Origin: Rhododendron vialii | Lineage: Eukaryota; Streptophyta; Magnoliopsida; Ericales; Ericaceae | Length of the DNA stretch: 64,000 nucleotides | Direction of reading: 5' to 3' | NCBI RefSeq assembly: GCF_030253575.1 | Contig: NC_080558.1 | Span: 36,401,611-36,465,610 of the forward strand | In this document: positions 14,947 through 52,635 of the stretch, piece by piece | How positions within the stretch are numbered: position 1 is the stretch's first letter | Layout: every line of letters begins with the position of its first letter | Made by a program: the position numbers and the translations under genes | Notes under the pieces: model-generated | The model's input: only the letters and a program-made list of their open reading frames with translations | The model's database searches: none | What the model was told of the DNA's origin: nothing

Positions 14947-15527
14947 TAATATTTAAGGGTCTTTTGTTTTGGGTGATTTGTGCTGGGTTCGTGTGCTACC
15001 GCTCGGTAACGGTGGCGACTGATGGTGGTGGGTGGGGTTTGGGTTGCAGTACGTGCTCTGATGGTGGCTGGATCTATTCATTGGTCATGGTGGCGACTGT
15101 GTAAGTTGTATCAATAAGGCAGATGGTTAGGATTAGGGTTTTTTTTATTTCGTTTTTGTTCGAATTCAGTCCGGTTTATATCTGAATTTAGTCCGGTTCT
15201 GTTCGGATTTATTCCAGTGGGTCTTTGAATGATTTCCACAGGTTGAATGTTGTCTTTGATATGGAGCTCCGCCATCCCAAAGCAGTCGGTGTCTGGATAC
15301 TAGCTCCACTTTTACCATTCATGATTATGGTGTGAATTGGATAATGACTACTGCTTAGGAGTTCAACATTAATTTCATCTCTTTTAGAATTTGATCAAAT
15401 CCCAGTAAAAACCCAGTGATAAAAAACTACAACCAATGATAAAAACCCAGTTCTCAAACCCGCCCGCCCCCCTCTCATTTAACCCAAAATACCCATGCCC
15501 CCGTTCAGCCCCAAAATACCCATGCCC
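14947..15527. other. Intergenic DNA between MITEs
   Basis: Moderately GC-rich for the window, with ggtggcgactg words and a C-rich segment near 15450-15530. No gene, RNA or transposon terminus is identified. Confidence 0.4.
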
Positions 15528-15889
15528 CGGTTCGGCTAAATAAGTTAACTAATTTATTTTTTTGTTCTTATTCAATTTTTTTTTGTATTTATTAGTTTTT
15601 CGTCAATTTTTTGGAGATTATTGCACGTCATGACAAGAGAGGAATCTAAAAAGTAAAAAATTAACAATCGAAATCTATTTTTTTGAATAAAGACAAAAAT
15701 AAGTCAATAAGCCAATTTTTTGGTCTTTATTAAAAAAAATTGAATTTCGATCATAATTTTTTACTTTTTAGATTCGTTTCATCATGACGATGTAATAATT
15801 TCCAAAAAAATTTATGAAAAATTAAAAAATATAAAAAAAAATTGAATAAAAACAAAAAAATAACCCAATTAACTTATTTAGCCGAACGG
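15528..15889. mobile_element. Palindromic MITE (family P, copy 2)
   Basis: The termini contain GTTCGGCTAAATAAGTTAA and its exact complement at the right end. Nearly the whole 360 bp folds back. Internal words 'ttgttcttattcaattttt' and 'catgacaagag' match copies 1 and 3 of the same family. Confidence 0.8.
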
Positions 15890-16284
15890 GCGGACTCAAG
15901 TGCTGCCATTTCACTTCCCAATAAGTTTGTTACAGGTTCTCTCTTTATCCCTGTGGAAGGGTACTCGTATTATCCAGTGGACAAGAAAATACGCCCCGAC
16001 TACTGTAAGAAAGAAAAAATGCACACATCCGCAACGAGCGCAGATAAAAGCCTCACCCAATGAACATCAAAGACAACTTAATTTCGCAGGAAAGTACTTT
16101 AATTAGCCAGTGGACAAATAAAAACAATCACATATAATTTCAAATTCCTCGAAATGTTTCTCCTTCTCAGCGGCTACTGCTAGATACAAAAACAAATACA
16201 CACAACACAACAAGTTCAAATAAAAGCCTCGCCTCATTAACATCAAATCATGTTGCCACTAAACTAAATGGATTAAGGGTAGGT
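15890..16284. other. Spacer between two family P MITEs
   Basis: About 400 bp containing short open frames without family resemblance and no recognised repeat termini. Confidence 0.4.
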
Positions 16285-16640
16285 TTGGATTAAAAAATTA
16301 AGTGACTTATTTTTTTGTCCTTATTTAATTTTATTTTTTTGCATTTGATTGTTTTACGTTAAACTTTTGTGACTTATTGATTCGTATTGACAAGAGGAAT
16401 CGAAAATGTAAAATTTTTTGATCGAAACTCATAATTTTTTGAATAAAGACAAAAATAAATCAGCTTTTTTTACTTATTCTTATTTTTTTGAAAAAAAATA
16501 TGAGTTTCGATCAATTTTTTTTACTTTTTCAATTCTTTTCGTCGAGACGAAACAATAAGTCACAAAAGTTTGACACAAAACTAACAAATGCGAAAAAAAT
16601 TGAATAAAGACAAAAAAAAAAGTCAAAATGAATTTTAAAG
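16285..16640. mobile_element. Palindromic MITE (family P, copy 3)
   Basis: The left arm reads 'ttaagtgacttatttttttg' then 'tccttatttaat'. The right arm mirrors it with 'attgaataaagacaaaa'. The internal CGTCGAGACGAAACAATAAG segment is shared with the 5.5-kb copy. The exact termini are blurred, and TAA precedes the likely left end. Confidence 0.65.
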
Positions 16641-23456: not shown

Positions 23457-23968
23457 GGGAACGGGGGAAGTTGCTGTGCAGCTTCTTGCTGCACAGCGTG
23501 CTGTGCACCCGCCGGCGACGCCTTGCCGGCATCGGTCAGGAACGGGGGAAGCTGCTGTGCAGCTTCGTGCTACACAGCGTGCTGTGCACCCGCCGGCGAC
23601 GCCTTGCCGGCATCAGTCCGGAGATCGGAGACGTTCACCGCGTAGAGCTTGTCGAGTTCTACATGTGCGCCAAAAATCAGCTCGATCAAATATCGTTAAG
23701 TGCCTCATCCGAACGCATATAACTTGAAAAAAAATAATACAAAACACTGGATCCATTTTTTTCAAGTTATATGTGTTCGGATGAGGCACTTAACGATATT
23801 TGATCGAGCTGATTTTTGGCGCACGTGTAGAACTCGACAAGCTCTACGCGGTGAACGTCTCCGATCTCCGGACCAATACCGGCAAGGCGTCGCCGACGGG
23901 TGCACAGCATACTGTGCAGCACGAAGCTGCACAACAGCTTCCCCCGTTCCCTTTCGGGAATTGGTGAG
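23457..23968. mobile_element. GC-rich near-perfect hairpin element with 81-bp tandem duplication
   Basis: The left arm (about 23539-23733) and right arm (about 23756-23968) are near-perfect inverted copies around a loop of roughly 25 bp. Shared words include CTGTGCAGCTTCGTGCT, 'gacgttcaccgcgtagagct' and 'gatcgagctgatttttggcg'. The outer 81 bp of the left arm (units starting at 23458 and 23539) is duplicated in tandem. Open frames across the arms arise from GC-richness and are not genes. A degraded relative lies at about 34990-35100. Confidence 0.85.
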
Positions 23969-36745: not shown

Positions 36746-37481
36746 GAGGAGTTGGATCCAGAAGATAACTATTCTTCATAATTGGTGTAGAACCTGTAGG
36801 TATTGAAACTTTCGAAATTTCTTAATTAGTTAATAATCCAAACGCAACCTTATGGCGATCTACGGATTCGGAAGCATTCTCTTGAATTTTAGGGCATAAT
36901 AATTAATCTTGTACGGAATCCTTTTTTTTCCATGTGAAGGTAGATGATCACGTCTTGAGGCACGTCGGCATGTTATAAAATTCTCAATAGCCAATCAAAA
37001 CAGAAAATACAAGGCACGCCGGATGCAATGGACAGTTTTTTATTTTCAAATAACTGATCTACTCCTATTAAATTTTTTTTTTAAAAAGTCAACATTTAAT
37101 ACAAAACGTAGATGATGCATGGGAGAAATTTTAATTTTAATATTGAGTTGTCCAAATGTCGCTTTAAAATGACAGCACCAACGTTGATTTGGACTCCATA
37201 TGTAATTTTGACTAGTTTATTCAAAAAAATATACTAGTAGCTATTAAATTTTGCATTGATGTTTGGCACGATTAATTGTCGAAGAATCACAAATGTGGAA
37301 TCAAAGCTTTTTTTGTGGTCATTTGCAAGTCAACGATGCAGAGTTTTACTATTTAATTGTCTCTTTAATAATGATTAGTTGTCCGAGTCAACTCGTGTGC
37401 ATTTGACCTAGTTACGGGGTTCTCAAGTTTTTATTTTTTAACCAAAAAGGTTAGAAATTTTATTAATACCAGATAGACTAA
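36746..37481. other. Intergenic stretch, no gene recognised
   Basis: AT-rich sequence without recognised features. Near 37430-37470 there is 'ggttagaaattttattaata', which on the minus strand resembles the AATAAAATTT-type tail of plant LINEs. Confidence 0.35.
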
Positions 37482-37847
37482 GGGCATCTCCAATCCATCT
37501 CTATTTCTCCAAAATAGAAGATGGATGTGACACATTGAGGGGAGATTTTATAATTTATTCCATTTTTTCTTCACTTTTTGTACTTTTTGGGAGAATCTTT
37601 GAGGGACCCACCATCCTTTTTAGAGTTTGGTCCTCCAAAAGTAAATTTGGTCCTCTAAAAATGGAGGACCAAAAGCAAATTTGGAGTATAAAATTTCTCC
37701 AAACTCTAAAAAAGACGATAGGTCCCTCAAAAATTCTCCCAAAAAGTACAAAAAGTGAAGAAAAAATGAAATAAATTATAAAATCTCCCCTCAATGTGTC
37801 ACATTCATTCTCTATTTTGGAGGAATGGAGATGGATTGGAGATGCTC
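37482..37847. mobile_element. Tourist/Harbinger-like MITE (366 bp)
   Basis: The left end is GGGCATCTCCAATCCATCTC and the reverse complement of the right end is GAGCATCTCCAATCCATCTC. TAA flanks both sides (37479-37481 and 37848-37850). The arms are inverted almost throughout, with 'cacattgaggggagatttta' on both sides. Unpaired ends of the same family appear at 51433 and 53069. Confidence 0.9.
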
Positions 37848-38303
37848 TAAGCACATCCTTCCTTGGACAAAAGAGAGAATAGCCATACATGCGAATAGAC
37901 TCCAAAGAGAGAAGATTTACAGCTCAAACTCCATTAGAGAGTAGCAGTGCTACACCATACCAACCACTACATCTCACAGAAGCAAACTCACACAGATGAA
38001 AAAAATTCGCTAAAATGACACCCGTGGTCGCGGAAGGTGAGGAAGACCCCCGAAGGGAAGAGACAACCAAAACAATATAACATCAAACTAGAAAAAAAAA
38101 ACCCTAAAAACCTAACTCTGGCGTAGATCCAACCTCGAACGGCAAATATCAGCACCAAGAGACGCCGGCTGCACTGCCATCAGCCGTTGCGACAAACCAC
38201 CACCAGCAACCCTTCGGCTAGCAACACCACCACTACCAGCAAATACCAGCATACCTCAGACGACACAGAGATGAATGGGGGAGAACCGGCCTCCATCAGA
38301 ACG

Positions 38304-38521
38304 CACTACAAGAAAAAGTATATTTGCTGATGAAAAGCAAAATTTTCGTCACCAAAAGTTACTATAGGGTGACGAAAAAACAAGATTTTCGTCACCAAAA
38401 GTGACTTTCAGCGACGACCTATAGGTTTTGATGAAAATCTTGTTATTTCATCACCTATAGTAAAAATTAAATTTCATCACCAATATTTTTATCGTTAGCA
38501 AATATACTTTTTCTTGTAGTG
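38304..38521. mobile_element. CACTA-type MITE (218 bp)
   Basis: Both ends carry CACTACAAGAAAAAGTATAT, the right one inverted, which is the signature terminus of plant En/Spm (CACTA) elements. The interior has repeated subterminal 'ttttcgtcaccaaaag' words in both orientations. The flanking triplets do not match, so the expected 3-bp duplication has decayed. Confidence 0.85.
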
Positions 38522-39330
38522 GTACACGAATCCAAAGGGAAACGGGGAAGGACCAATTGGGGAGAGGGAGGGGAGGAAGAAGAGAGGAGAGAATTAACGC
38601 GAGGCTCGGGGGGAGGAGAAGGAGCTGCCTCCCTCTAAGGGAAACCCTAACTGAAGAAGTTAGAAAGAGAAAGTAGAGAGAACAAAAAGCACCACAGTTT
38701 CTCCGTTAACTCTATGGGATTCTGAAGTTAATGACCTGAAAACCTCTAGTGATCCTATAAGAGTTTATAGCACCTAAGAGATTTGGAACTTGAGATCTTA
38801 GGAGGGAGTTCGAGGCTTTGACCACCAGACCAATCTATTGGGGTTTTTGAACTTTTTAATGGTTTGCAAGGTATTTAGATGGGATCTAGCTAGAAAAATA
38901 GATCTAATAAACACTTAGTGATGCCAATTGTTCTCTCTTCAATGGGGAGTGATTATTTTGAGTAACCTAATTTCTTTTCTTTTCTTTTTAACATTGAAAA
39001 ATAAAAGTAATCTAATTTCTTTAGATTGACATATTATTTAGACAGAAAAAGCAACAGGAAGAAATATTTTGGCCGAATGTGAGCCTTGTTTTTGACAATA
39101 TAGAAAAATTCTAGGCTAACAATATTTCGGTGAGCAAGTACAAGGGGTGAAAGGAAAAATCGATAAACCTGACCGACAACCGAAATTGGACCAAACAAGT
39201 TAATTCGGTTTGGTTTCTAGAGGCAATCGGTTTGTCCAGTTTGATTTTTAGCCAAACATAAAATCCGGTCTAGTTCGCTGCCATCCAAACCGATATAAAT
39301 TGGATCAAACCATATTTATATGTATACACA
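38522..39330. other. Intergenic DNA left of the Harbinger palindrome
   Basis: A purine-rich segment near 38540-38680 is followed by AT-rich DNA, with 'ccgattt/accggt'-like words near 39170-39300 that suggest another degraded transposon. No coding. Confidence 0.4.
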
Positions 39331-39377
39331 CATCATCCTCAACATCGACAAGGTATTCCTAACCCCCCCCCCCTTCG

Positions 39378-39414
39378 CTCTCTCTCTCTCTCTCTCTATC
39401 TATCTCTCTCTCTC
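39378..39414. repeat. (CT)n/(ATCT)n microsatellite in the left arm
   Basis: CT repeats with ATCT interruptions follow a C-run. It is the mirror partner of the GA tract at 51072-51104. Confidence 0.9.
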
Positions 39415-41472
39415 GAAATTAATTTCAACTTTATGATTTAGGTTTAGATTCTGTGATTAATTTGTTCATCAACGTCAATTGGGGTATGAAATCGGAGAAG
39501 ATTATTTGTGTGAATTAGATCATAGTTATAGAATTGGTACCTAAATTACATGTAAAACTAGGATTACCACAATTCCCTATAAGGGTTAAAGAACTCCAAA
39601 TCCAGATCAAGCCAAATGCTTATTCCATGAATAATATTTGTTGGGTTCTCTGTTTCGTTCAGGATTAGTGTTAGTTTTGTCATTATGGCTCGGTTAGCAA
39701 CAATGCTACGTACACTCCTACTGACTACTCCTCTCTCAGATATGTGTCGACCCCCATAATTAATAAAGCCCCATACAAATATGTGAGAGAGAAGTGGTGG
39801 GGAAGTGGCCGGTAAGATTGTTCCTAGAATTATTGTATATTTATGTTTTACCGTCTAAAATCAAGTTTGGGGTGCAGAGTAACAATTGGGTAATTTGGGA
39901 GAGGGGACTAATTATGGACATGGTTGGACGTGGCCATAAATAGTCTTGTTGCAAAGAGGCAATTTAGTCAATGCATGAGATTAACTAATCCGGATGTATA
40001 TGCCTACAAAACATTGGACCAACTGGTTTTGGATTAAGCAAATAATCTATCCAACCACGTGCAGCTAACAAGAGGCTCCCAGTTGTGCCACTGATGATTG
40101 ACACACTTGAGAGAGTAAACTGAGCAAGAGACACTGCTCAACGCACAAACAACTAAAATTCATGAGTAGAAGGATTAAGAGCAAGATCGAGCGTGAGAAG
40201 TGAGAGCAGAAGGAAATACCATTTTGAAAAATTATATGTGACTAAGCTATGAGCATTGATAGTGTGCCAAGAAATATCTCCTTGTCTTACAATTTCTCTC
40301 CTTTGTTAAGAAAGGTAATAGTAATATATGTATCTTTAACAGATTTTTGTTTGCAGTTTTGTTGTTTGTCCCTATTGTAGATTTGTTTTATGTATTGATA
40401 TTTAGATTGGATAGGTTGTCCAATTGAGACTCTTTGTATGACTTTCTTTTGCTTTTTCTCATGTGGGACTTTATGGGTTATATTCAGTATTTGTCCATTA
40501 TTATTAAAACTTCTACCCAATTGTTGAACCGTAAGGAGTGGGCTCTGCATTCAATTGGGTTTGTAAAAGAATGAGTTGTGGTTTTCTAAGAGATAAAGGT
40601 AGATTTGGTTATATTACGTTGGTTCTGTTCAATCTACTAATAATGTAAACATCTAATCCATGAAAACTGTCTTGTTTTTTCATGATTACTGCCATGTTTT
40701 GGCCTCATGTCTGATTAGGTTTTGTACGATAGGCTTCTTACCGTCCGTTTTCAGCCTTGTGCTTGATTTGATTGTCTTTGGCATTGGATACTGTAATCTC
40801 TAATTCTAGTAGAAGACACATCCATACAATATTCAATTATAATTACAAGTTATCTCTCCGCTTTTCAAGATCCTGCACCAGTCGCTCATTATCAAATCCA
40901 ACCTCGAGTTAATTTCATTCACATCTAGTAAAGGCTGTTTCAGCCACATGTACAGTAATCTGTGTCACTTTTTGGATCTGGAACATGTATGTATAGATAA
41001 CGTGGCAATATTCCTGGTGTGGTCCTAAACAACAACTTATAATTTGGTTGTTTAAGGAGAGCCAATGTCATAGTTGTGTTGGTAGATTCAATTGCTAAAA
41101 TATGTGGGTACGAATGAAAGAACAAATTCCTTGTTATGTCTTCTTCCTTTTTTCTCCTTGCTAAGCCTATGCTATATTTTTTTACATGAACACAGTAGAC
41201 GTTAAGAGTCTTTCCATATTTGACTAGGCCTCAATATATGTTCCTCTTCTTTCCTTTTTGCTTAGTTTCTTGGACCCCTTAAACTTATCAGTTAATTTAT
41301 CAGCCCATATGAATCACAACGAATACTAACATAATGGCTATCAATTTAAAATGTATTTGTCACTTTTTGCATTGCCTAAACTTCTACATGACATGAGCGA
41401 TGTTTTTCTTTTTGCATTGGCTTATGGTTCTTCTTCTTCTTTTATTATACCTACCTTCTTGTTCTTCTAGGG

Positions 41473-42460
41473 ATGGATGTGAGACCATATGCATATTTCA
41501 CAAATGTCTTACAGGATGGTGTGATCCTTGAAGATCATTCTTTGAGGGAGCCTCAAGATGAATTTGGATTTACGTATGCAAATCCACATGCTAAATGTTT
41601 ACCCAAGCATCTCAAACCCCAACTCAAAAGGGATCCACTCATAAGAGAGCGCAACGTGGTGGCAAGTTCACCATTGAAGAAGACAAATTGCTTGTATCAG
41701 CATATTTGAATGTTAGCTTGGATGTCGTGCAAGGGAATGACCAGAAACTTAAAACATACTGGAGAAGAGTGTGGGATTATTTCCACGAGCACATGCCATT
41801 GGCTCAGCGTAATGAGAACTCTAGGATGAATAGGTGGTCGACCATTCAACTTTCCGTTAACAAGTTCTGTGGATGCTTTGCTAGAATTGAAGGAAAGCAT
41901 CAAAGTGGTATGAATGAGGAAGACAAGGTATTGAACTTCAATATAAATAATTACATTGATTATTGCTTTCACACTTTTTACACACGCGGTAATTATTTAC
42001 ATGTTTGTAGGTCTCTGAAGCAAACAAATCGTACAAGGAACTCCATGGAGGTTCATTTCAATTTGAGCACTATTTGAATATTTTGAAGTACCAACCAAAG
42101 TGGCATGTCGATGTTGAGAAGAAAAAAACAAAGAAGAACAAAACTTGGACAGTACCTTCTTCTTCTACTCCCAAGTTGGTAGATCTTGGAGAATGTGATG
42201 CCACATTTGTGGACTTGGAGAGACCTATAGGTACCAAAGTTGAGAAGAAAAAACAAAAGTTAGCTGAAATTCCTAGTTCTCCTCTTGCAAGAATACTAAC
42301 TGACATAAAAGAAGAACAAAAGAAAATGAGCGACAAGAAAATGGACATCATCCAGCAACTACATGTTCAAGAGCAGGAGAGACACCAACTTGATAAAGAG
42401 AGACTTCGTAAAGAGCAAGAGAGAAATGCTATTAAGAAAGAAATGCTACGTGTGAAATAG
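41473..42460 (+). pseudogene. PIF/Harbinger ORF1 (Myb/SANT-like protein), left arm, broken
   Basis: The start reads MDVRPYAYFTNVLQDGVILE. A one-base deletion near 41597, seen by comparison with the right arm, shifts the frame. The rest continues in another frame with GGKFTIEEDKLLVSAYLNVS, then KTYWRRVWDYFHEHMP, the trihelix/Myb-like DNA-binding domain of PIF ORF1 proteins. One intron is likely (about 41928-42009: AAG|GTATTG to TTTGTAG|GTCTC). The second exon gives KELHGGSFQFEHYLNILKYQ and a Lys/Glu-rich coiled C-terminus, with the stop at 42458-42460. Such proteins help bind transposon ends and carry the transposase into the nucleus. Confidence 0.8.
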
Positions 42461-42586
42461 TTCAAAGAAGAGGAGAGGATAATGCTACTGGATACAAGTG
42501 CCTTGCCTCATGTGCTATAAGAGTACTATCAAAGCCGGCAAATGGAGATCCTTCAAGAACGCGAAAAAAGGTTTAAAAGGGTTGGT

Positions 42587-42810
42587 AGTTGAACTTTTGT
42601 GGGACATCTAGACGTTTTGGAGGATTGAAGTAGTATTGATCGTTGAACTTTTGTGAAACTTTTGTGGGACATCTAGATGTTTTGGAGGATTGAAGTAGTA
42701 TTGGTAGTTGAACTTTTGTGGGGCATCTAGACGTTTTGGAGGGTTGAAGTAGTTTGGACATCTATACATTTTGGAGGGTTGAACTTTTTTGGACATGAAG
42801 TCTTTTTTGG
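42587..42810. repeat. Tandem repeats of about 55-65 bp downstream of ORF1
   Basis: A unit containing TTGAACTTTTGTGGGACATC and 'gacgttttggaggattgaag' recurs about three and a half times with internal shortening. A decayed mirror copy lies in the right arm at about 47480-47640. It belongs to the Harbinger element, between its two genes. Confidence 0.8.
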
Positions 42811-43526
42811 ACATCTATTGCAAAAAAAAAAAATCGAATGCTATCGTACCCAGAACCGAGGTTTGGGTGTATTTTGGTAAATATTAGTTTGTGCTTGGTG
42901 TTCTTGTAATATTTGGTTTATTATTGAAGTTGCTTCTCCTTCTTCTTTTGTCACATTTTCAAATGCATAAAATGACACATATTTACCTTGTTGTGCCTAC
43001 TGGAAGGGGTGTGTCATTGTTGGAAGTTGAAATGGTGAATGGTGTGTGTCTTTAAAAGGAGAGTATAAAGTCTCTACTGGTGTTGTTTGGTACAAGTGAA
43101 TGGTGTGTGTCTTCGAGTAGTATGGAGTCTGCTCTACTGGAGTAATATGATTCAAGTGGGGGGGGGTTTTATTTTATTTCATTTTCATTTGCAGCCGTAA
43201 CAGTAACCTATGGGACTACATTTTCATTTGTAGCAGTAGCAATAGCAGTTCCTAATCTGAGATTGATTACTATGGTCCACAAATCTTTAACTTGGAGGAA
43301 GTTGTGGGATCAAGGAACTTCATAATTTTGAGAGGGGATTCTGCTACTCTGCTATTAAGGTGAATGGACAAAACAAAAGGGACATTGTACCACTCCTTAA
43401 TTATTCCAAATACTTCACCTCGCTGTCCATTGCATAAATGAGATTACATGATTGCATAAATGGGATTAAATACTTGCACAAATGAGATTACATAATTTCA
43501 TAAATGATATTAACTACTCCAAATTC

Positions 43527-44806
43527 CTATGATTGGCTATGTCGCTCCCATAAGTGCTTGACGAGGTTTGATTGAAGTTGGGAGTGAGTTTCTCTATTTC
43601 AAATAACATGTTGGCGTCGAATGAACTCCATAAGTTCCGTTGTATGCTCATGCGATATTGGTTCGGGGAGAGGTCCGTCATCCCTTTCATATTCAAAGTC
43701 TTATGCATCATTTTCTCGCTTGTCCTCAATGATCATGTTATGCATTATTATGCATGCTTTCATAATAACTTTGAGCATGCTACGTCCTCAAAAACGTGCC
43801 AGTTGACGTATAACCGCAAAACGAGCTTAAACCACTCCAAATGCACACTCTACATCCTTCATTGCTGATTCTTGGGCTACTGCGAAATTTTCTTGTTTCC
43901 TTGCGGATGTTGAATTGTTTTCGCGAATTTAGACCATCGAGGATATATACCATCTGCTAGATAATATCCCATCGTATAGTTATGACCATTGATCGAGTAG
44001 TTGGCCGGAAGAGCACGTCCTTCGACCAATTCAGTAAAGACTGATGATCTTTCTAGCACGTTGATGTCATTATTACCTCCTGGTAATCCAAAATATGAAT
44101 GCCATATCCATCGGTCATACGACACTACCACTTCCAGAATAATTGTTGGTTCGCGAATATGGCCACTATATATTCCTTTCTATGCCATTGGACAATTCTT
44201 CCATTTCCAATGCATACAATCAATACTTCCCAACATCCCAGGAAATCTACGTCGTTCACCAACTGCTAGCAATCTAGCAGTGTCATCGCTAGTGGGTGAC
44301 CTTAAGTATTCATCAGAAAAAATCTCAATTATCACTATGGCAAATCTCTTTAGACTCTCTAATGCGGTGCTTTCCCCTATCCTAACAATCTCATCTAAAA
44401 AATTAGCCGATACCCCATAAGCAAGGATCCAAATTACTGCTGTCATCTTTTCAAGTGAAGACAAGCCGAGCTTTCCGGCAGCATTTCTTGTTTGGACAAA
44501 GTATGGATCATGTACTTCTACCGCAGCTTGAAGATGGAGAAAAAGAGAACGACTCATACGAAATCTCCTTCGAAAGTACTGAGGAGGATAAATGGGTGGT
44601 TCTGCAAAATAGTCGCGAAAAATCTTTTCCTGGCCTAGGATAGTACCACAGTTAATATATCTGGGACCTTGAACAGAACCACAATGTCACATTACTTCTC
44701 TCACACTTTTTAGTCGTTCTTCTTCCATAGCAATTATGGTAAGTATCTCCAAATCATTGTCGTCTGAGTCAAGAAAGAGAAAATTTAGAAGAGCATTGCG
44801 AGACAT
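43527..44806 (-). pseudogene. PIF/Harbinger DDE transposase, left arm, broken
   Basis: The gene runs from ATG at 44806 to TAG at 43527. Family motifs are PPQYFRRRFRMSR, FPGMLGSIDCMHWKWKNCP (first catalytic Asp), WHSYFGLPGGNNDINVLERS (second Asp) and a Glu near the end. Breaks compared with the right arm: a TGA in the N-terminal region where the right arm has CGA, a TAG in place of Trp just after KNCPMA, a frame disruption after the QGNKK segment, and a TGA in place of Trp near the C-terminus. The first break and an adjacent cgtgg-to-tgtgg change are CpG-to-TpG transitions, the usual trace of cytosine methylation. The intact protein would be about 425 residues without introns. Confidence 0.85.
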
Positions 44807-45047
44807 AATTTAGAAAGATGAAATGACGTATCGACAAAATTAAAATTAAGATGGTTGTGAAAATGAGAGCAAATATAGGAAAGAGTGGGGAGGTTAATAA
44901 GATAAAAAAAATTAAATTGAGATGATCCTGGAAATGGGAAGAAAGTTGGTGGAGAATATAGATGAAAGGAAAAAGTAGTTCCGATCTATGTATATAGTTG
45001 TTAGATCGAAGTGGAAGAAAGCTGGTGGAGATAGAGTTGTTGGGCTA

Positions 45048-45169
45048 AGAAATATACCAGAAATTAGATTAGCTAGCCACCAATTTTTACAATCCCCCAA
45101 TAAACTAGCCTTTAGGCTATGCAAAGGAAAAACAAAAATGGTAATCTGCGGAAAAAAAATTGGTAACCT
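45048..45169. other. Central loop of the palindrome
   Basis: About 120 bp without an inverted partner. It contains 'attagattagctagccacc', which resembles 'aaatagctagccaaagc' on the minus strand near the right-hand end (about 51380-51400). It also holds a small inverted pair (ccaccaattttt / aaaattggtaacc). It may be what remains of the abutting transposon ends. No intact terminal repeat is visible. Confidence 0.5.
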
Positions 45170-45215
45170 GCTTTCCCAACCAACAGCTCTATCTCCACCA
45201 GCTTTCTTCCACTTC

Positions 45216-45360
45216 CAACAACTATATATACATAGATCGGAACTACTTTTTCCTTTCATCTATATTTTCCACCAACTTTCTTCCACTTCCAACAACTATA
45301 TATACATAGATCGGAACTACTTTTTCCTTTCATCTATATTCTCCACCAACTTTCTTCCCA
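45216..45360. repeat. Tandem duplication of about 73 bp beside the palindrome centre
   Basis: The stretch TTCTTCCACTTCCAACAACT followed by 'atagatcggaactactttttc' occurs twice in the right arm and only once in the left, so the duplication post-dates separation of the arms. Confidence 0.8.
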
Positions 45361-45486
45361 TTTCCAGGACCATCTTAATTTAATTTTTTTGTATCTTATT
45401 AACCTTCACTCTTTCCTATATTTGCTCTCATTTTCACAACCATCTCAATTTTAATTTTGTCGATACATCATTTCATCTTCTAAATT

Positions 45487-46766
45487 ATGTCTCGCAATGC
45501 TCTACTAAATTTTCTCCTTCTTGACTCAAACAACAATGATTTGGAGATACTTACCGTAATTGCTAATGCAAGAAGAACGACTAAAAAGTGAGAGATAAGT
45601 AGTGCGACATCGTGGTTCTGTTTAAGGTCGCAGATATATTGATCGTGGTACTATCCTTGGCCATGAAAGGATTTTTCGCGACTATTTTGCAGAACCACCC
45701 GTTTATCCTCCCAAGTAATTTCGAAAGAGGTTCCGTATGAGCCGTTTTCTTTTTCTCCATATTCAAGCTACGGTAGAAGTACATGATCCATACTTTGTCC
45801 AAACAAGAAATGCTGCCGAAAAGCTTGGCTTGTCTTCACTTCAAAAGATGACAGCAGCAATTCGGATCCTTGCCTATGGGGTATCGACTGATTTTTTAGA
45901 TGAGATTGTCAGGATAGGAGAAAGCACCACATTAGAGAGTCTAAAGAGATTTGTCATAGCAGTGATTAAGAATTTTTCCGATGAATACTTAAGGTCACCC
46001 ACTAGCGATGACATTGCTAGATTGCTAGCAGTTGGTGAACAACGTGGATTTCCTGGGATGTTGGGAAGTATTGATTGTATGCATTGGAAATGGAATAATT
46101 GTCCAACGGCATGGAAAGGAATGTATAGTGGCCATATTCGCGAACCAACAGTTATTCTGGAAGCGGTAGCGTCCTATGACCGATGGATATGGCATTCATA
46201 TTTTGGATTACCAGGAGGTAATAATGACATCAATGTGCTAGAAAGATCATCAGTCTTTATTGAATTGGCCAAAGGACATGCTCCTTCAGCCAACTACTCA
46301 ATCAATGGTCATAACTATACGATGGGATATTATCTAGCAGATGGTATATATCCTCGGTGGTCTACATTTGCGAAAACAATTCCACATCTGCAAGGAAACA
46401 AGAAAAAATATTTCGCAGTAGCCCAAGAATCAACAAGGAAGAATATAGAGTGTGCATTTGGAGTGCTTCAAGCTCGTTTTGCGGGTTATACATCAACTGA
46501 CACGTTTTTGGGGACGTAGCATGCTCAAAGTTATTATAAAAGCATGCATAATAATGCATAACATGATCATTGAGGACAAGCGAGAAGATGATGCACATGA
46601 CTATGAATATGAAAGGGATGATGGACCTCTCCCCGAACTAGTATCGCATGAGCATACAACGGAACTTATGGAGTTCATTCGACACCAACATGTTATTCGA
46701 AATAGAGAAACTCACTCCCAACTTCAATCAGACCTCGTCGAGCACTTATGGGAGCGACATAGCTAG
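45487..46766 (+). pseudogene. PIF/Harbinger DDE transposase, right arm, nearly full length
   Basis: The gene runs from ATG at 45487 to TAG at 46764-46766. The longest uninterrupted stretch (45737-46519) starts MSRFLFLHIQATVEVHDPYF. The catalytic triad is visible: Asp in LGSIDCMHWKW (near 46073), Asp in LPGGNNDINVLERS (near 46226) and Glu in RKNIECAFGVLQARF (46448-46450). Breaks: stop codons replace a Gln (SVQG in the left arm) and a Tyr (PPQYF) before 45737, and one extra G just after the FGVLQARF motif shifts the frame. The shifted C-terminus continues at 46500-46766 with ACIIMHNMIIEDKRED. The breaks differ from those of the left copy. Confidence 0.85.
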
Positions 46767-47758
46767 TCATAGGAATTTGGAGTAGTCAATATCATTTATG
46801 CAATTATGTAATCTCATTTGTGCAAGTATTTAATCCCATTTATGCAATCATGTAATCTCATTTATGCAATAGACAGCGAGGTTAAGTATTTGGAATAATT
46901 GAGGAGTGGTACAATGTCCCTGTTGTTTTGTCCATTCACTTTAATAGCAAAGTAGCAGAATCCCCTCTCAAAATTATGAAGTTCCTTGATCCCACAACTT
47001 CCTCCAAGTTAAAGATTTGTGGACCATAGAAATCAATCTCATATAAAGAATTGCGACTGCTATTGCTACAAATGAAAATACAGCCCCATACGTTACTGCT
47101 ACTGCTGCAAATGAAAAAACAAAAAACAAAAACGCCCACTTGAATCATATTACTCCAGTAGAGTAGACTCCATACTACTCAAAGACACACACCATTCACC
47201 TGTACCAAACAACACCAGTAGAGACTTTATACTCTCCTTTAAAGATACACACCATTCACCATTACAACTTCCAACAAGGACACACCCCTTTCCGCAGGCA
47301 CAACAAGGTAAATATGTGACATTTTATGCATTTGAAAATGTGACAAAAGAAGAAGAACAACTTCAATAATAAACCAAATATTACAAGAACACCAAGCACA
47401 AACTAATGTTTACCAAAATACACCCAATCCTCAGTTCTGGCATGTGAATTGTTTTTGCAATAGATGTCCAAAAAAGACAACATGTCCAAAAATTCAACCC
47501 TCCAAAACGTCTAGATGTTCAAACTACTTCAACCCTCCAAAACGTCTAGATGCCCCACAAAAGTTCAACTACCAATACTACTTCAATAGTTCAATCCTCC
47601 AAAACATCTAGATGTCCTACAAAAGTTCAACTACCAACCCTTTTAAACCTTTTTTCGCGTTCTTGAAGGATTTCCATTTGCCGGCTTTGATAGTACTCTT
47701 GTTGCACATGACGCAGGGCACTTGTATCCAGTAGCATTATCCTCTCCTCTTCTTTGAA

Positions 47759-49019
47759 CTATTTCATACGTAGCATTTCTTTCTTAATAGCATTTCTCTC
47801 TTGCTCTTCACGAAGTCTCTCTTTATCAAGTTGGTGTCTCTCTTGCTCTTGAACATGTAGTTGTTGGATGATGTCCATTTTCTTGTTGCTCGTTTTCTTT
47901 TGTTCTTCCTTTATGTCAGTTAGTATTCCTGCAAGGGGAGAACTAGGAATTTCAGTTAACTTTCATTTTTTCTTCTCAGCTTTGGTACCTATAGGATTAG
48001 GATGATGCTATGGTGTCCCCAGTCATTTTGGAGACACCGTAATTTTTGGCATAACTTCACCATTATGAGCATAACTAAAACCCTTACAAGCATAACAGAA
48101 CCCATACAAGGCATAACCAAGGAATATCTAAAAAACCAACCAAGGCATAACAAACATGTTATGCCTTACTATGCTCATAATGAATTTTGGTTATACTCAT
48201 AATGGTTTTGTTATGCCAAAAGTTACGGTGTCCCCAAAATGACCGGGGACACCAAAGTCATTCCCGTCTCTCCAAGTCCACAAAGGTGGCATCACATTCT
48301 CCAAGATCTACCAACTCAGGAGTAGAAGAAGAAGGTATTGTCCATGTTTTGTTCTTCTTTGTTTTTTTCTTCTCAACATCGACATGCCACTTTGGTTGGT
48401 ACTTCAAAATATTCCAACAGTGCTCAAATTTAAATGAGCCTCAATGGAGTTCCTTGTACGATTTGTTTGCTTCAGAGACCTACAAACATGTAGACAATTA
48501 CATCGTGTGTAAAAAGTGTGAAAGCAATAATCAATGTAATTATTTATATTGAAGCTCAATACCTTGTCTTCCTCATTCATACCACTTTGATGCTTTGCTT
48601 CAATTCCAGCAAAGCATCCACAGAACTTGTTAACGGAAAGTTGAATGGTCGACCACCTATTCATCAGAGAGCTCTAATTACGCTAAGCCAATGGCATGTG
48701 CTCATGGAAGTAATCCCATACTCTTCTCCAGTATGTTTTAAAGTTTCTGGTCATTTCCTTGCACGGCATCAAAACTAACATTCAAATATGCCAATACAAG
48801 CAATTTGTCTTCTTCAATGGTGAACTTGCCACCACGTTGCGCTCTCTTAGCAGTGGATCCCTTTTGAGTTAGGGTTTGAGATGCTTGGGTAAACACTTGA
48901 GCATGTGGATTTGCATAAGTAAATCCAAATTCATCTTGAGGCTCCCTCTCAGAATGATCTTCAAGGATCACACCATCCTATAAGAGATTTGTGAAATATG
49001 CATCTGGTCTCACATCCAT
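47759..49019 (-). pseudogene. PIF/Harbinger ORF1 (Myb/SANT-like), right arm, broken and interrupted
   Basis: It is the mirror copy of the left-arm ORF1. A stop (TAG where the left has CAG) follows the first 14 codons. The frame then reads REPQDEFGFTYANPHAQVFT and GGKFTIEEDKLLVLAYLNVS (48971-48738), here without the left arm's one-base deletion. Downstream it is frameshifted, and the second exon is split by an inserted MITE at about 48012-48253. Product and role are as for the left copy. It is clearly inactive. Confidence 0.8.
48012..48253. mobile_element. MITE inserted in right-arm ORF1
   Basis: The ends GGTGTCCCCAGTCATTTTGG and (reverse complement of the right) GGTGTCCCCGGTCATTTTGG continue into matching 'gacaccgtaa' and 'ttttggcataac' words, an inverted repeat of about 45 bp. 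The left arm has uninterrupted sequence here, which proves an insertion (total extra sequence about 47996-48266). The interior repeats 'gcataac' words about eight times. No clean target duplication was found. Confidence 0.85.
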
Positions 49020-51067
49020 CCCTAGAAGAACAAAAAGGTAGGTATAATGAAAGAAGAAGAAGAACCGTAAGCCAATGCAAAAAAAGCATCTCTCATGTCA
49101 TGTAGAAGTTTAGGCAATGTAAAAAGTGACAAATACATATTAAATTGATAGCCATTATGTTTGTATTCGTTGTGGTTCATATGGGCTGATAAATTAACTG
49201 ATGGATTTATGGGGTCCAAGAAACTAAGCAAAAAGGAAAGAAGAGGAACATTGAGGCCTAGTCAAATATGAAAAGACTCTTAACCTCTACTGTGTTCGTG
49301 TAAAAAAATCTAGTATAGGCTTAGCAAGGAGAAAAATGAAGAAGACATAAAAAGGAATTTGTTCTTTCATCCGTACCAACATATCTTTGTAATTGAATCT
49401 ACCAGCACAACTATGACACTGGCTCTCCTTAAACTACCAAATTATAAGTTGTTGTTTAGGACCACACCTGGAATATTGCCACGTTATCTATACATACATG
49501 TTCCAGATCCAAAAAGTGACACAGATTATTGCATATGTGGCTGAAATAGCCTTTACTAGATGTGAATGGAATCAACTCAAGGTTGGATTTGATAATGAGC
49601 GATTGGTGCGCGATCTTGAAAAGCGGAGAGATAACTTGCAGTTATAACTGAATATTGTATGGACATGTCTTCTACTAGAATTAGAGATTGTAGTATCCAA
49701 TGCCAAAGACAATCTAATCAAGCACGAGGTCGAAAATGGACGATAAGAAGCCTATTGTACAAAACCTAATTAGACATGAGGCCAAAACATGGTAGTAATC
49801 ATGAAAAAACAAGACAGTTTTCATGGATTAGATGTTTACATTATTAGTAGATTGAACAGAACCAACGTAATATAACCAAATCTACCCTTATCTCTTAGAT
49901 AACCACAACTCATTCTTTTGCAAACCCAATTGAATGCAAAGGCCACTCTTTACGGTTCTATAATTGGGTAGAAGTCTTAATAATAATGGACAAATACTGA
50001 ATACAACCCATAAAGTCCCACATGAGAAAAAGCAAAAGAAAGTCATACAAAGAGTCTCAATTGGACAACCTATCCAATCTCAATATCAATACATTAAACA
50101 AATCTACAATAGGGACAAACAACAAAAAAAGCAAACAAAAATATGTTAAAGATACATATATTATTATTACCTTTCTTAACAAAGGAGAGAAATTGTAAGA
50201 CAAGGAGATATATCCTGACACGCTATCAATGCTCATAGCTTAGTCACATATAATTTTTCAAAATGGTATTTTCTTCCACTCTCACTTCTCACTCTCGATC
50301 TCACTCTTAATCCTTACACTCTTGAATTTTAGTTGTTTGTGCATTGAGCAGTGTCTCTTGCTCAGTTTACTCTCTCGAGTGTGTCAATCATCAATGGTAC
50401 AATTGGGAGCCTCTTGTTAGCTGCTTGGTTGGATAGATTATTTGCTTAATCCGAATCCAGCCGGTCCAGTGTTTTATAGGCATATACATCCAGATTAGTT
50501 AATCTCATGCATTGACTAAATTGCCTCTTTGCAACAAGACTATTTATGGCCACGTCCAACCATGTCCATAATTAGTCCCCTCTCCTAAATTACCCAATTG
50601 TTACTTTCCACCCCAAACTTGATTTTAGACGGTAAAACATAAATATACATATGTCTAGGAACAATCTTATCGGCCACTTTCCGACCACTTCTCTCTCACA
50701 TATTTGTATGGGCCCTTATTAATTATGGGGGCTGACACATATGTGAGAGAGGAGTGGTCAGTAGGAATGTACGTAGCATTGTTGCTAACCGAGCCATAAT
50801 GAAAAAACTGACACTAATCCTGAATGAAACAGATAACCCAACAAATATTATTCATGAAATAAGCATTTGGCTTGATCTGGATTTGCAGTTCTTTAACCCT
50901 TATACGGAATTGTGGTAACCCTAGTTTTACATGTAATTTAGGTACCAATTCTATAACTATGATCTAATTCACACAAATAATCTTCTCCGATTTCATATCC
51001 CAATTGACGTTGATGAACAAATTAATCACAGAATCTAAACCTAAATCATGAAGTTGAAATTAATTTC

Positions 51068-51071
<4 letters not shown>

Positions 51072-51104
<33 letters not shown>
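51072..51104. repeat. (GA)n microsatellite in the right arm
   Basis: About sixteen GA units. Mirror partner of the CT tract at 39378-39414. Confidence 0.95.
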
Positions 51105-51107
<3 letters not shown>

Positions 51108-51413
51108 TACCTTGTCGATGTTGAGGATGATGAAAAATCTCCACAGGACCACAACCCTAGAGTATAGAGGGAAAAGAGGAAGAAACTTCGCGCGGGAAAG
51201 CGAGAGCGGCGATGAAACTTCGCGCGGGAGATGACAAATCGAGGGAGGAGAGAAGGAAAAGAGGAAGAAATCGAAGGAGCGAGGCTGAAATACCTCGCTC
51301 AGATGAGCAATGTACTGTAGCACCACGCCATTTCGCCCACGGTGAAGCGAGTCTGCTGGATTTCCTCTTTTTGTGCTTTGGCTAGCTATTTAAGCTAAAT
51401 ATTCCAATTGCCT

Positions 51414-51433
51414 ATAGGCAGTTGGAGATGCTC
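51414..51433. mobile_element. Unpaired Harbinger-type terminus right of the palindrome
   Basis: The sequence ends GGCAGTTGGAGATGCTC followed by TTA. In reverse complement it reads GAGCATCTCCAACTGCC, close to the terminus of the MITE at 37482-37847. It lies about 300 bp outside the right arm and may be the true end of the right-hand Harbinger element. No partner end was found. Confidence 0.5.
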
Positions 51434-52635
51434 TTATATCCGATAAATCATGACCGAATGTGACTCTTTTTTTAACATCAATTGAATATAACTACAAATG
51501 TGATTACTATGTGTATTGGCCGAAAGGATAGTACTCCTATTCAATTGAGCCCTAATTCGAAAGCCAGTCGTTTGACAGTGTCCAGAGCAATGATTCTATA
51601 ACTACACACAAACATTTACAAAAACTCACTCACATCACATGTGGGGTCCACATACACTGGACAGTGAGTTTGAGTTATGTGTTTATGTGTTGCTGTAAGA
51701 AAATAGGTGTCCGGATTTGGGCATATGATTGTCAAGCTTCTGGGTGCCAAAATTGTTAGGATGCTTTCTTTTTGATTTTAAAACCGTTCTCACGTGCTTC
51801 CCTTTTAATCTTTGTAATTCTACTTTGAAAGATTAATAAAATCTTTTTGTCTTTAAAAAAATAATGATAATTTGTGTCCTGAGTACCCCTCCTATAAAAC
51901 TAATCGATCGATAGATTAGAACTCATCACATTTCCAAAGGTTGATTGTCCACCTCTCAAGGTTCAAGATGATTGGGAAACACATTAATGCTCTTTTAAGA
52001 ACATCTTTATTAGATACATCAAAAGCTAGCATCAAAATTGTACTTTGCTATCACACTTCAAATTTTGAAGGGCGAGTGCTGCACCATAATAGATCCTTCA
52101 AACTATAACATGCAACTTTATACATCTTTCTAGATTCATCGATCTAAATGCAAAATGATACGTATTTTACATTATAAAAATTATAAGCTACTTTTTATTG
52201 CTTAATTACTCCAATTACAATTTTTTTTCTGAAATACTAATTATATAGTCATATAATTGTGTGATATTTAGTAATTGAAGGTAATTGAGGTATATAGAAA
52301 ATTAGCTGCTGCCTAAAACTTATAATTACTAAAATCGTGATTAGAAGGTGGTTAAAAAGTAGTTAAAAATACAAATAATTAGTAGGTAGTTCAAAATTAG
52401 TTAAGAAAAGGGTAATTAGGAAGTAGTTGAGGAAGGGAGTCGGTCAACTTCTGGTTTTGACATTACTAGAGTAGTTTAGCTGAATTGTGGGGAAAAAAAC
52501 AATGTGGGAAGCCAAATTTTGGCATTGGCCCCCAAAACATGGCTCTTTATTGGGAAATGCTACAATGCTCTATTTTCTCATTTATTGGGTGCCAGTTGGG
52601 AACAACCACAACAGAAATGAGAACCTTCCATGTAA
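51434..52635. other. Intergenic DNA, no gene recognised
   Basis: AT-rich. Near 51800-51860 it carries 'tttaatctttgta' and 'ctttgaaagattaataaaat' plus an A-rich end, the same 3' tail as near 24400. It is otherwise featureless. Confidence 0.4.

Follow-up and report, generated by a model that had tools for sequence, protein, structure and literature searches.

Elements of the PIF/Harbinger family carry terminal inverted ends and occupy a 3-bp TTA/TAA target site, as set out in PMC2213677. Two described systems show what may follow when transposon sequences come to lie in opposite orientations. In rice, juxtaposed inverted transposons are reported as sources of small-RNA hairpins (PMC3086885). 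For the Mu killer locus of maize, PMC3440606 reports that an internal promoter of the locus drives antisense transcripts in plants that silence and that read-through from a flank yielded sense transcripts where plants did not silence, and it argues that read-through from a flanking gene is not the source of silencing. Here we describe a PIF/Harbinger palindrome of 12 kilobases from Rhododendron vialii, located at 39331-51132 of a 64,000-nucleotide stretch of contig NC_080558.1 (this whole stretch is the window, to which all positions refer). The locus today is probably a methylated relic of two defective copies joined head to head, whose transcripts, if any, could feed the production of small interfering RNAs (siRNAs). 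Hairpin silencing by this locus is possible.

The initial annotation reported two inverted elements of about 6 kb, and the palindrome lies exactly where it had been placed. Inverted-repeat search, self-BLAST and base-level alignment all recover a single large inverted repeat with arms at 39331-45043 (minus strand, with the head of the copy at the centre) and 45180-51132. Their alignment has 5,602 ungapped columns and shows 93.7% identity. The 351 mismatches comprise 237 transitions and 114 transversions, or a Kimura two-parameter distance of 0.066, in a count that extends over two mismatched columns on the inner side. Given that the 901 bases across the centre fold at -498 kcal/mol and that 0 of 20 shuffles fold as well (mean -174, standard deviation 6.9), chance is excluded as the source of the palindrome, and we regard the structure as confirmed. 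The longest identical run between the arms is 93 bases, which falls within the range of 70-146 produced by 500 simulations of even divergence. Therefore, the arms give no sign of recent homogenisation.

The two arms are copies of one small PIF/Harbinger family. All four transposase pieces match the Pfam family PF04827 (Plant_tran; best E-value 4e-81), one of them also resembles PF13359 (DDE_Tnp_4) below the cut-off, and the second exon of ORF1 matches PF14303 (1.6e-6), with no Pfam match for the exon 1 piece that was scanned. Together with the arm alignment and the family ends considered below, these matches uphold the earlier description of two head-to-head PIF/Harbinger copies. In each copy the two genes converge, the transposase pointing away from the centre and ORF1 towards it, and, as originally proposed, the start codon of either transposase frame lies near the centre (ATG at 44806 on the minus strand and at 45487 on the plus strand). 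In the frames used, six internal stops and a 4-base gap disrupt the left transposase pseudogene (43527-44806, minus strand, PF04827), and its right counterpart (45487-46772, plus strand, PF04827) is interrupted by four internal stops and by two insertions of one base each. With stops and frameshifts in both transposases, neither copy qualifies as an autonomous element with intact genes and mobility of its own. The left ORF1 (41473-42460, plus strand; exons 41473-41927 and 42011-42460, the second matching PF14303) is free of stops and one base short, and the right ORF1 (47759-49019, minus strand; exons 49019-48563 and 48479-47759) has five stops and one extra base, a pattern that raises the question of longer constraint on ORF1. 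Exon 2 of the right ORF1 also contains an insertion of 271 bp (47995-48265) that resembles a miniature inverted-repeat transposable element (MITE). The arm alignment places it in the right arm only, and none of the other five copies in which the site is covered carries it there (L009, L011, L012, L017 and L020; L numbers denote matches in the genome).

The ends of these copies become interpretable through their relatives, for which we searched 532.6 Mb of genome in 13 contigs. A query taken from the centre matches the genome at 18 places. Among the 15 matches that lie beyond the window, nine begin at window position 45040 and two at 45044, and none spans the join of the two heads. Two 36-base matches (positions 9-44 of the query) correspond to the inverted arm end. 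At the head of L010, L011 and L012, TTA is followed by GAGCATCTCCAGCAATTCCTAGCCAT and then by the sequence seen at 45040. Therefore, only about 26 bp of head sequence is missing from the right copy, and the 136-bp unpaired centre (45044-45179, plus strand) is the head of this element itself, a stretch that runs on uninterrupted in relatives at other sites of the genome. The loop of about 120 bp in the initial annotation survives as a short unpaired centre, but its size is 136 bp and it is part of the right copy itself. A foreign spacer at the centre was rejected on the same contiguity of head sequence.

The tails of L010, L011 and L012 end in GGAGATGCTC, as does the window at 51433. Matching target sites are found as TTA at L010 and L011 and as TAA at L013, and L012 has TTA and TAA; the head end is gone in L009, L014 and L018. 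Terminal inverted repeats with a TTA/TAA target site are present in the family, and in the window the right tail end is their sole survivor. The right element is a nearly complete PIF/Harbinger copy (45040-51433, plus strand) that runs beyond the palindrome to a tail terminal repeat at 51417-51433, followed by TTA. Its tail beyond the palindrome (51133-51433, minus strand) is present in other copies and, judged from its position, presumably holds the ORF1 promoter and 5' leader pointing inward; splice-site-like motifs can be read by eye in this segment. The left copy has lost sequence at either end: compared with family copies, its head is short by about 165 bp and its tail by about 300 bp. 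At the junction of the two heads (45036-45046), 4-5 bp are common to both sides (TTGG/TTGGG, read by eye). Beside the palindrome, at 37478-37851, lies a fold-back MITE that ends in GRGCATCTCCAATCC next to TAA, with a terminal motif like that of the large element. We considered it as the left end of the element and set it aside, its sequence diverging after the first bases.

The transposases have been decaying without constraint since the copies separated. Their pairwise ratio of nonsynonymous to synonymous rates (dN/dS) between the arms, with stop codons excluded, is 0.88, and the polarised changes since the split comprise 50 nonsynonymous changes, seven stops and 14 synonymous changes. ORF1 is less clearly free to decay, with 17 nonsynonymous changes, three stops and 10 synonymous changes in the part examined.

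The pattern of decay also carries the mark of cytosine methylation. Between the arms, C/T differences occur at 66 of 409 CHG, 50 of 402 CG and 121 of 3,381 CHH sites, as expected of methylated DNA. Polarised C>T changes per cytosine number 41/899 in the right arm and 49/910 in the left, compared with 26/880 in L009, 14/487 in L010, 15/392 in L011, 8/386 in L012 and 5/156 in L020. Of these single copies, L010 contributes the transposase part only and L011, L012 and L020 the other part only; L017 served among the outgroups, and L013-L016, L018 and L019, which cover less than 70% of the compared regions, were left out. The arms rank first and second of the seven copies. When pooled, they have 90 C>T changes in 1,809 cytosines versus 68 in 2,301 for the single copies (p 0.001; 1.7-fold per cytosine), and all other changes are equal (64/5,070 versus 75/6,628, p 0.55). 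No context is strong alone (CG p 0.13, CHG p 0.05, CHH p 0.09), the excess of C>T relative to other changes has p 0.06, and the ratio for L011 is above that of either arm. These results are suggestive only: the excess in the arms may reflect extra methylation, and local chromatin could do the same.

With regard to how the two copies came to be joined, fold-back duplication seems to us slightly more likely than a pair of insertions followed by deletions. A break at the head of the right copy might have been repaired by fold-back copying primed by the microhomology of 4-5 bp, which would generate the left copy in a single event. Our preference stems from economy, because one event would explain both truncations of the left copy as well as the microhomology, whereas two insertions require extra deletions. 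Phylogeny agrees with this preference. The arms are sisters with support of 98/96 in a transposase-region tree of ten rows (both arms, L009, L010, L017, L025, L026, L027, L029 and L030), with a shared branch of 0.0085 and tips of 0.033 and 0.041, and they are again sisters in a seven-row concatenation tree (95/98). More distant or shorter matches among the at least 44 found stand outside the ten-row tree, and 40 of 75 candidates were scored, so copy counts are lower bounds. The segment 49110-51050 aligned only between the arms and partly with L017. Neutral decay was discarded as a test of origin, because any inserted copy decays.

Several observations weigh against a single duplication followed by free decay. 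In raw distance over the transposase region, the arms are not nearest to each other (0.068 between right and left, 0.060 between right and L010, 0.068 between left and L010), and L009 and L010 are separated by 0.050. Nine of the ten changes shared by the arms in this region are C>T, where about 3.2 parallel C>T changes are expected (probability of nine or more, 0.005); stricter agreement among outgroups leaves five C>T and one other change, which parallel change could give (P 0.21). Thus, some of the C>T changes that unite the arms may be parallel rather than inherited. No indel uniting the arms was found outside repeats and alignment edges. In addition, the arms have diverged to different degrees along their length (3.6-11.2% per 250 columns, p 0.007), and the pairwise dN/dS of ORF1, with stop codons excluded, is 0.42 (Fisher p 0.01 versus neutrality).

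The same relic could instead go back to two sister copies that inserted independently of each other in opposite orientations and were joined by one deletion removing both head ends, with a separate loss of the left tail. We rate this origin at somewhat under an even chance. It would account for the star-like distances among the close copies and for any part of the sister-arm support that reflects parallel C>T change, and a second inverted pair in the genome, which has intact ends in a different placement, also speaks for it. Against it stand the larger number of events that it requires compared with fold-back copying and the tree support of 98/96 for the arms. Even without a working hairpin, the locus is a clear case of transposon palindrome formation and decay.

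The second PIF-type palindrome is found on contig 10 of the same genome (G000 C10:29972277-29982369; L036, L041 and L038). Its arms of about 4.77 kb are 97.7% identical and lie 573 bp apart with their transposases pointing inward, and a terminal-repeat-like end beside TAA can be recognized by eye at the right outer edge only. Given this pair, inverted pairs are not unique to the window, and the palindrome examined here is an ordinary kind of structure. Self-inverted, near-perfect stretches of about 320-410 bp also occur in the window at 23539-23950, 15526-15890 and 16303-16625, and these are probably MITEs.

The initial annotation had further proposed that read-through from either flank could make a silencing hairpin at this locus. 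The arm alignment bears out its premise that RNA of the locus could pair over kilobases, as roughly 96% of the aligned positions would pair whichever strand is transcribed. Read-through from the flanks fared less well. Pfam recognises aquaporin-family (MIP) exons on the minus strand to the left of the palindrome (24.6-27.8 kb) and, to its right, a plus-strand glyoxalase exon (57.5 kb). Ten further flanking frames match no Pfam family in a scan of 14 of the 61 listed flanking frames, a scan to which non-coding transcripts are invisible. Because both recognised neighbour genes run away from the palindrome, transcription entering from either of these genes is unlikely. The inward ORF1 promoter region of the right copy, putative and assigned from position, appears to be a better candidate. 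Since the intact right tail points inward and the left copy lacks both ends, this tail is, by analogy with Mu killer, a candidate start of transcription.

If the locus acted in the manner of Mu killer, RNA from this inward promoter would cross the centre into the left copy, fold and be diced, and the resulting siRNAs would silence relatives in trans. We consider this scenario improbable. The extensive pairing in either transcript, the strong central fold and the C>T surplus in the arms at equal other change are all consistent with it. Sequence shared with relatives counts for it too: the non-simple 21-mers in common with the arms number 1,143 in L009, 848 in L010, 725 in L011, 833 in L012, 655 in L017 and 157-175 in each of L025-L027, such that four close copies share 725-1,143. 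On the other side, the surplus weakens when C>T is set relative to other changes and the L011 ratio exceeds that of either arm, transcription would have to run past the end of ORF1, and there is no Rfam family at gathering score in 38500-52500. Selection for pairing in a single transcript has left no sign either, as changes that preserve pairing show no bias towards one strand (114 versus 123, p 0.60). The apparent state of the possible targets also counts against silencing. In eight copies (L009, L010, L017, L025-L027, L029 and L030) the longest open frames with transposase motifs span 30-313 codons, relative to an aligned transposase gene of about 426 codons, and the close family looks largely inactive. 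L031, which is more distant, keeps 372 codons open and has three non-simple 21-mers in common with the arms. Accordingly weighed, a natural PIF/Harbinger silencing locus, in which truncation would have left one inward promoter, the long transcript would be a hairpin and the extra methylation it drove would be written as surplus C>T in the arms over equally old single copies, seems to us an unlikely description of this palindrome.

Long palindromes are difficult to assemble, but a simple artefact in which one element was joined to its own inverted copy is very unlikely and we give it almost no weight, because the arms differ by 6.3%, a MITE sits in one arm only, the ends are unequal and the window is free of N bases throughout. 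As a separate observation on this assembly, the sizes of contigs C1, C4, C7, C10, C11 and C12 of G000 divide exactly by 2,500 bases and those of C2 and C6 do not, which suggests that scaffolds were trimmed or padded to bins of fixed size.

If the hairpin does work, the palindrome would add a natural example, beyond Mutator in maize, in which an inverted copy silences the transposon family it belongs to; no PIF/Harbinger silencing palindrome was found in the literature searched, with subscription journals largely outside coverage. Furthermore, past silencing could be tested for, without living tissue and across genomes, by setting the C>T decay of inverted arms against that of single copies of equal age.

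When set beside the described systems, the copies in the window are like other PIF/Harbinger elements with PF04827 and ORF1 in their transposase domain, ORF1 partner, ends and TTA/TAA site. In place of a single element, two truncated and broken copies here form one inverted unit. The rice hairpins, as presented in PMC3086885, similarly draw their two arms from two related elements in opposite orientation, but those were chosen as small-RNA loci, whereas our palindrome is multi-kilobase in size and known from sequence alone. Mu killer differs in that it derives from Mutator and that its silencing was shown genetically. Its original model has a flanking gene reading in, and in the window no recognised gene does so among the flanking frames scanned. 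The window contains the inverted duplication of transposase sequence that is a Mu killer-type feature and, like Mu killer as described in PMC3440606, its inverted transposase-gene copies would be able to yield hairpin RNA.

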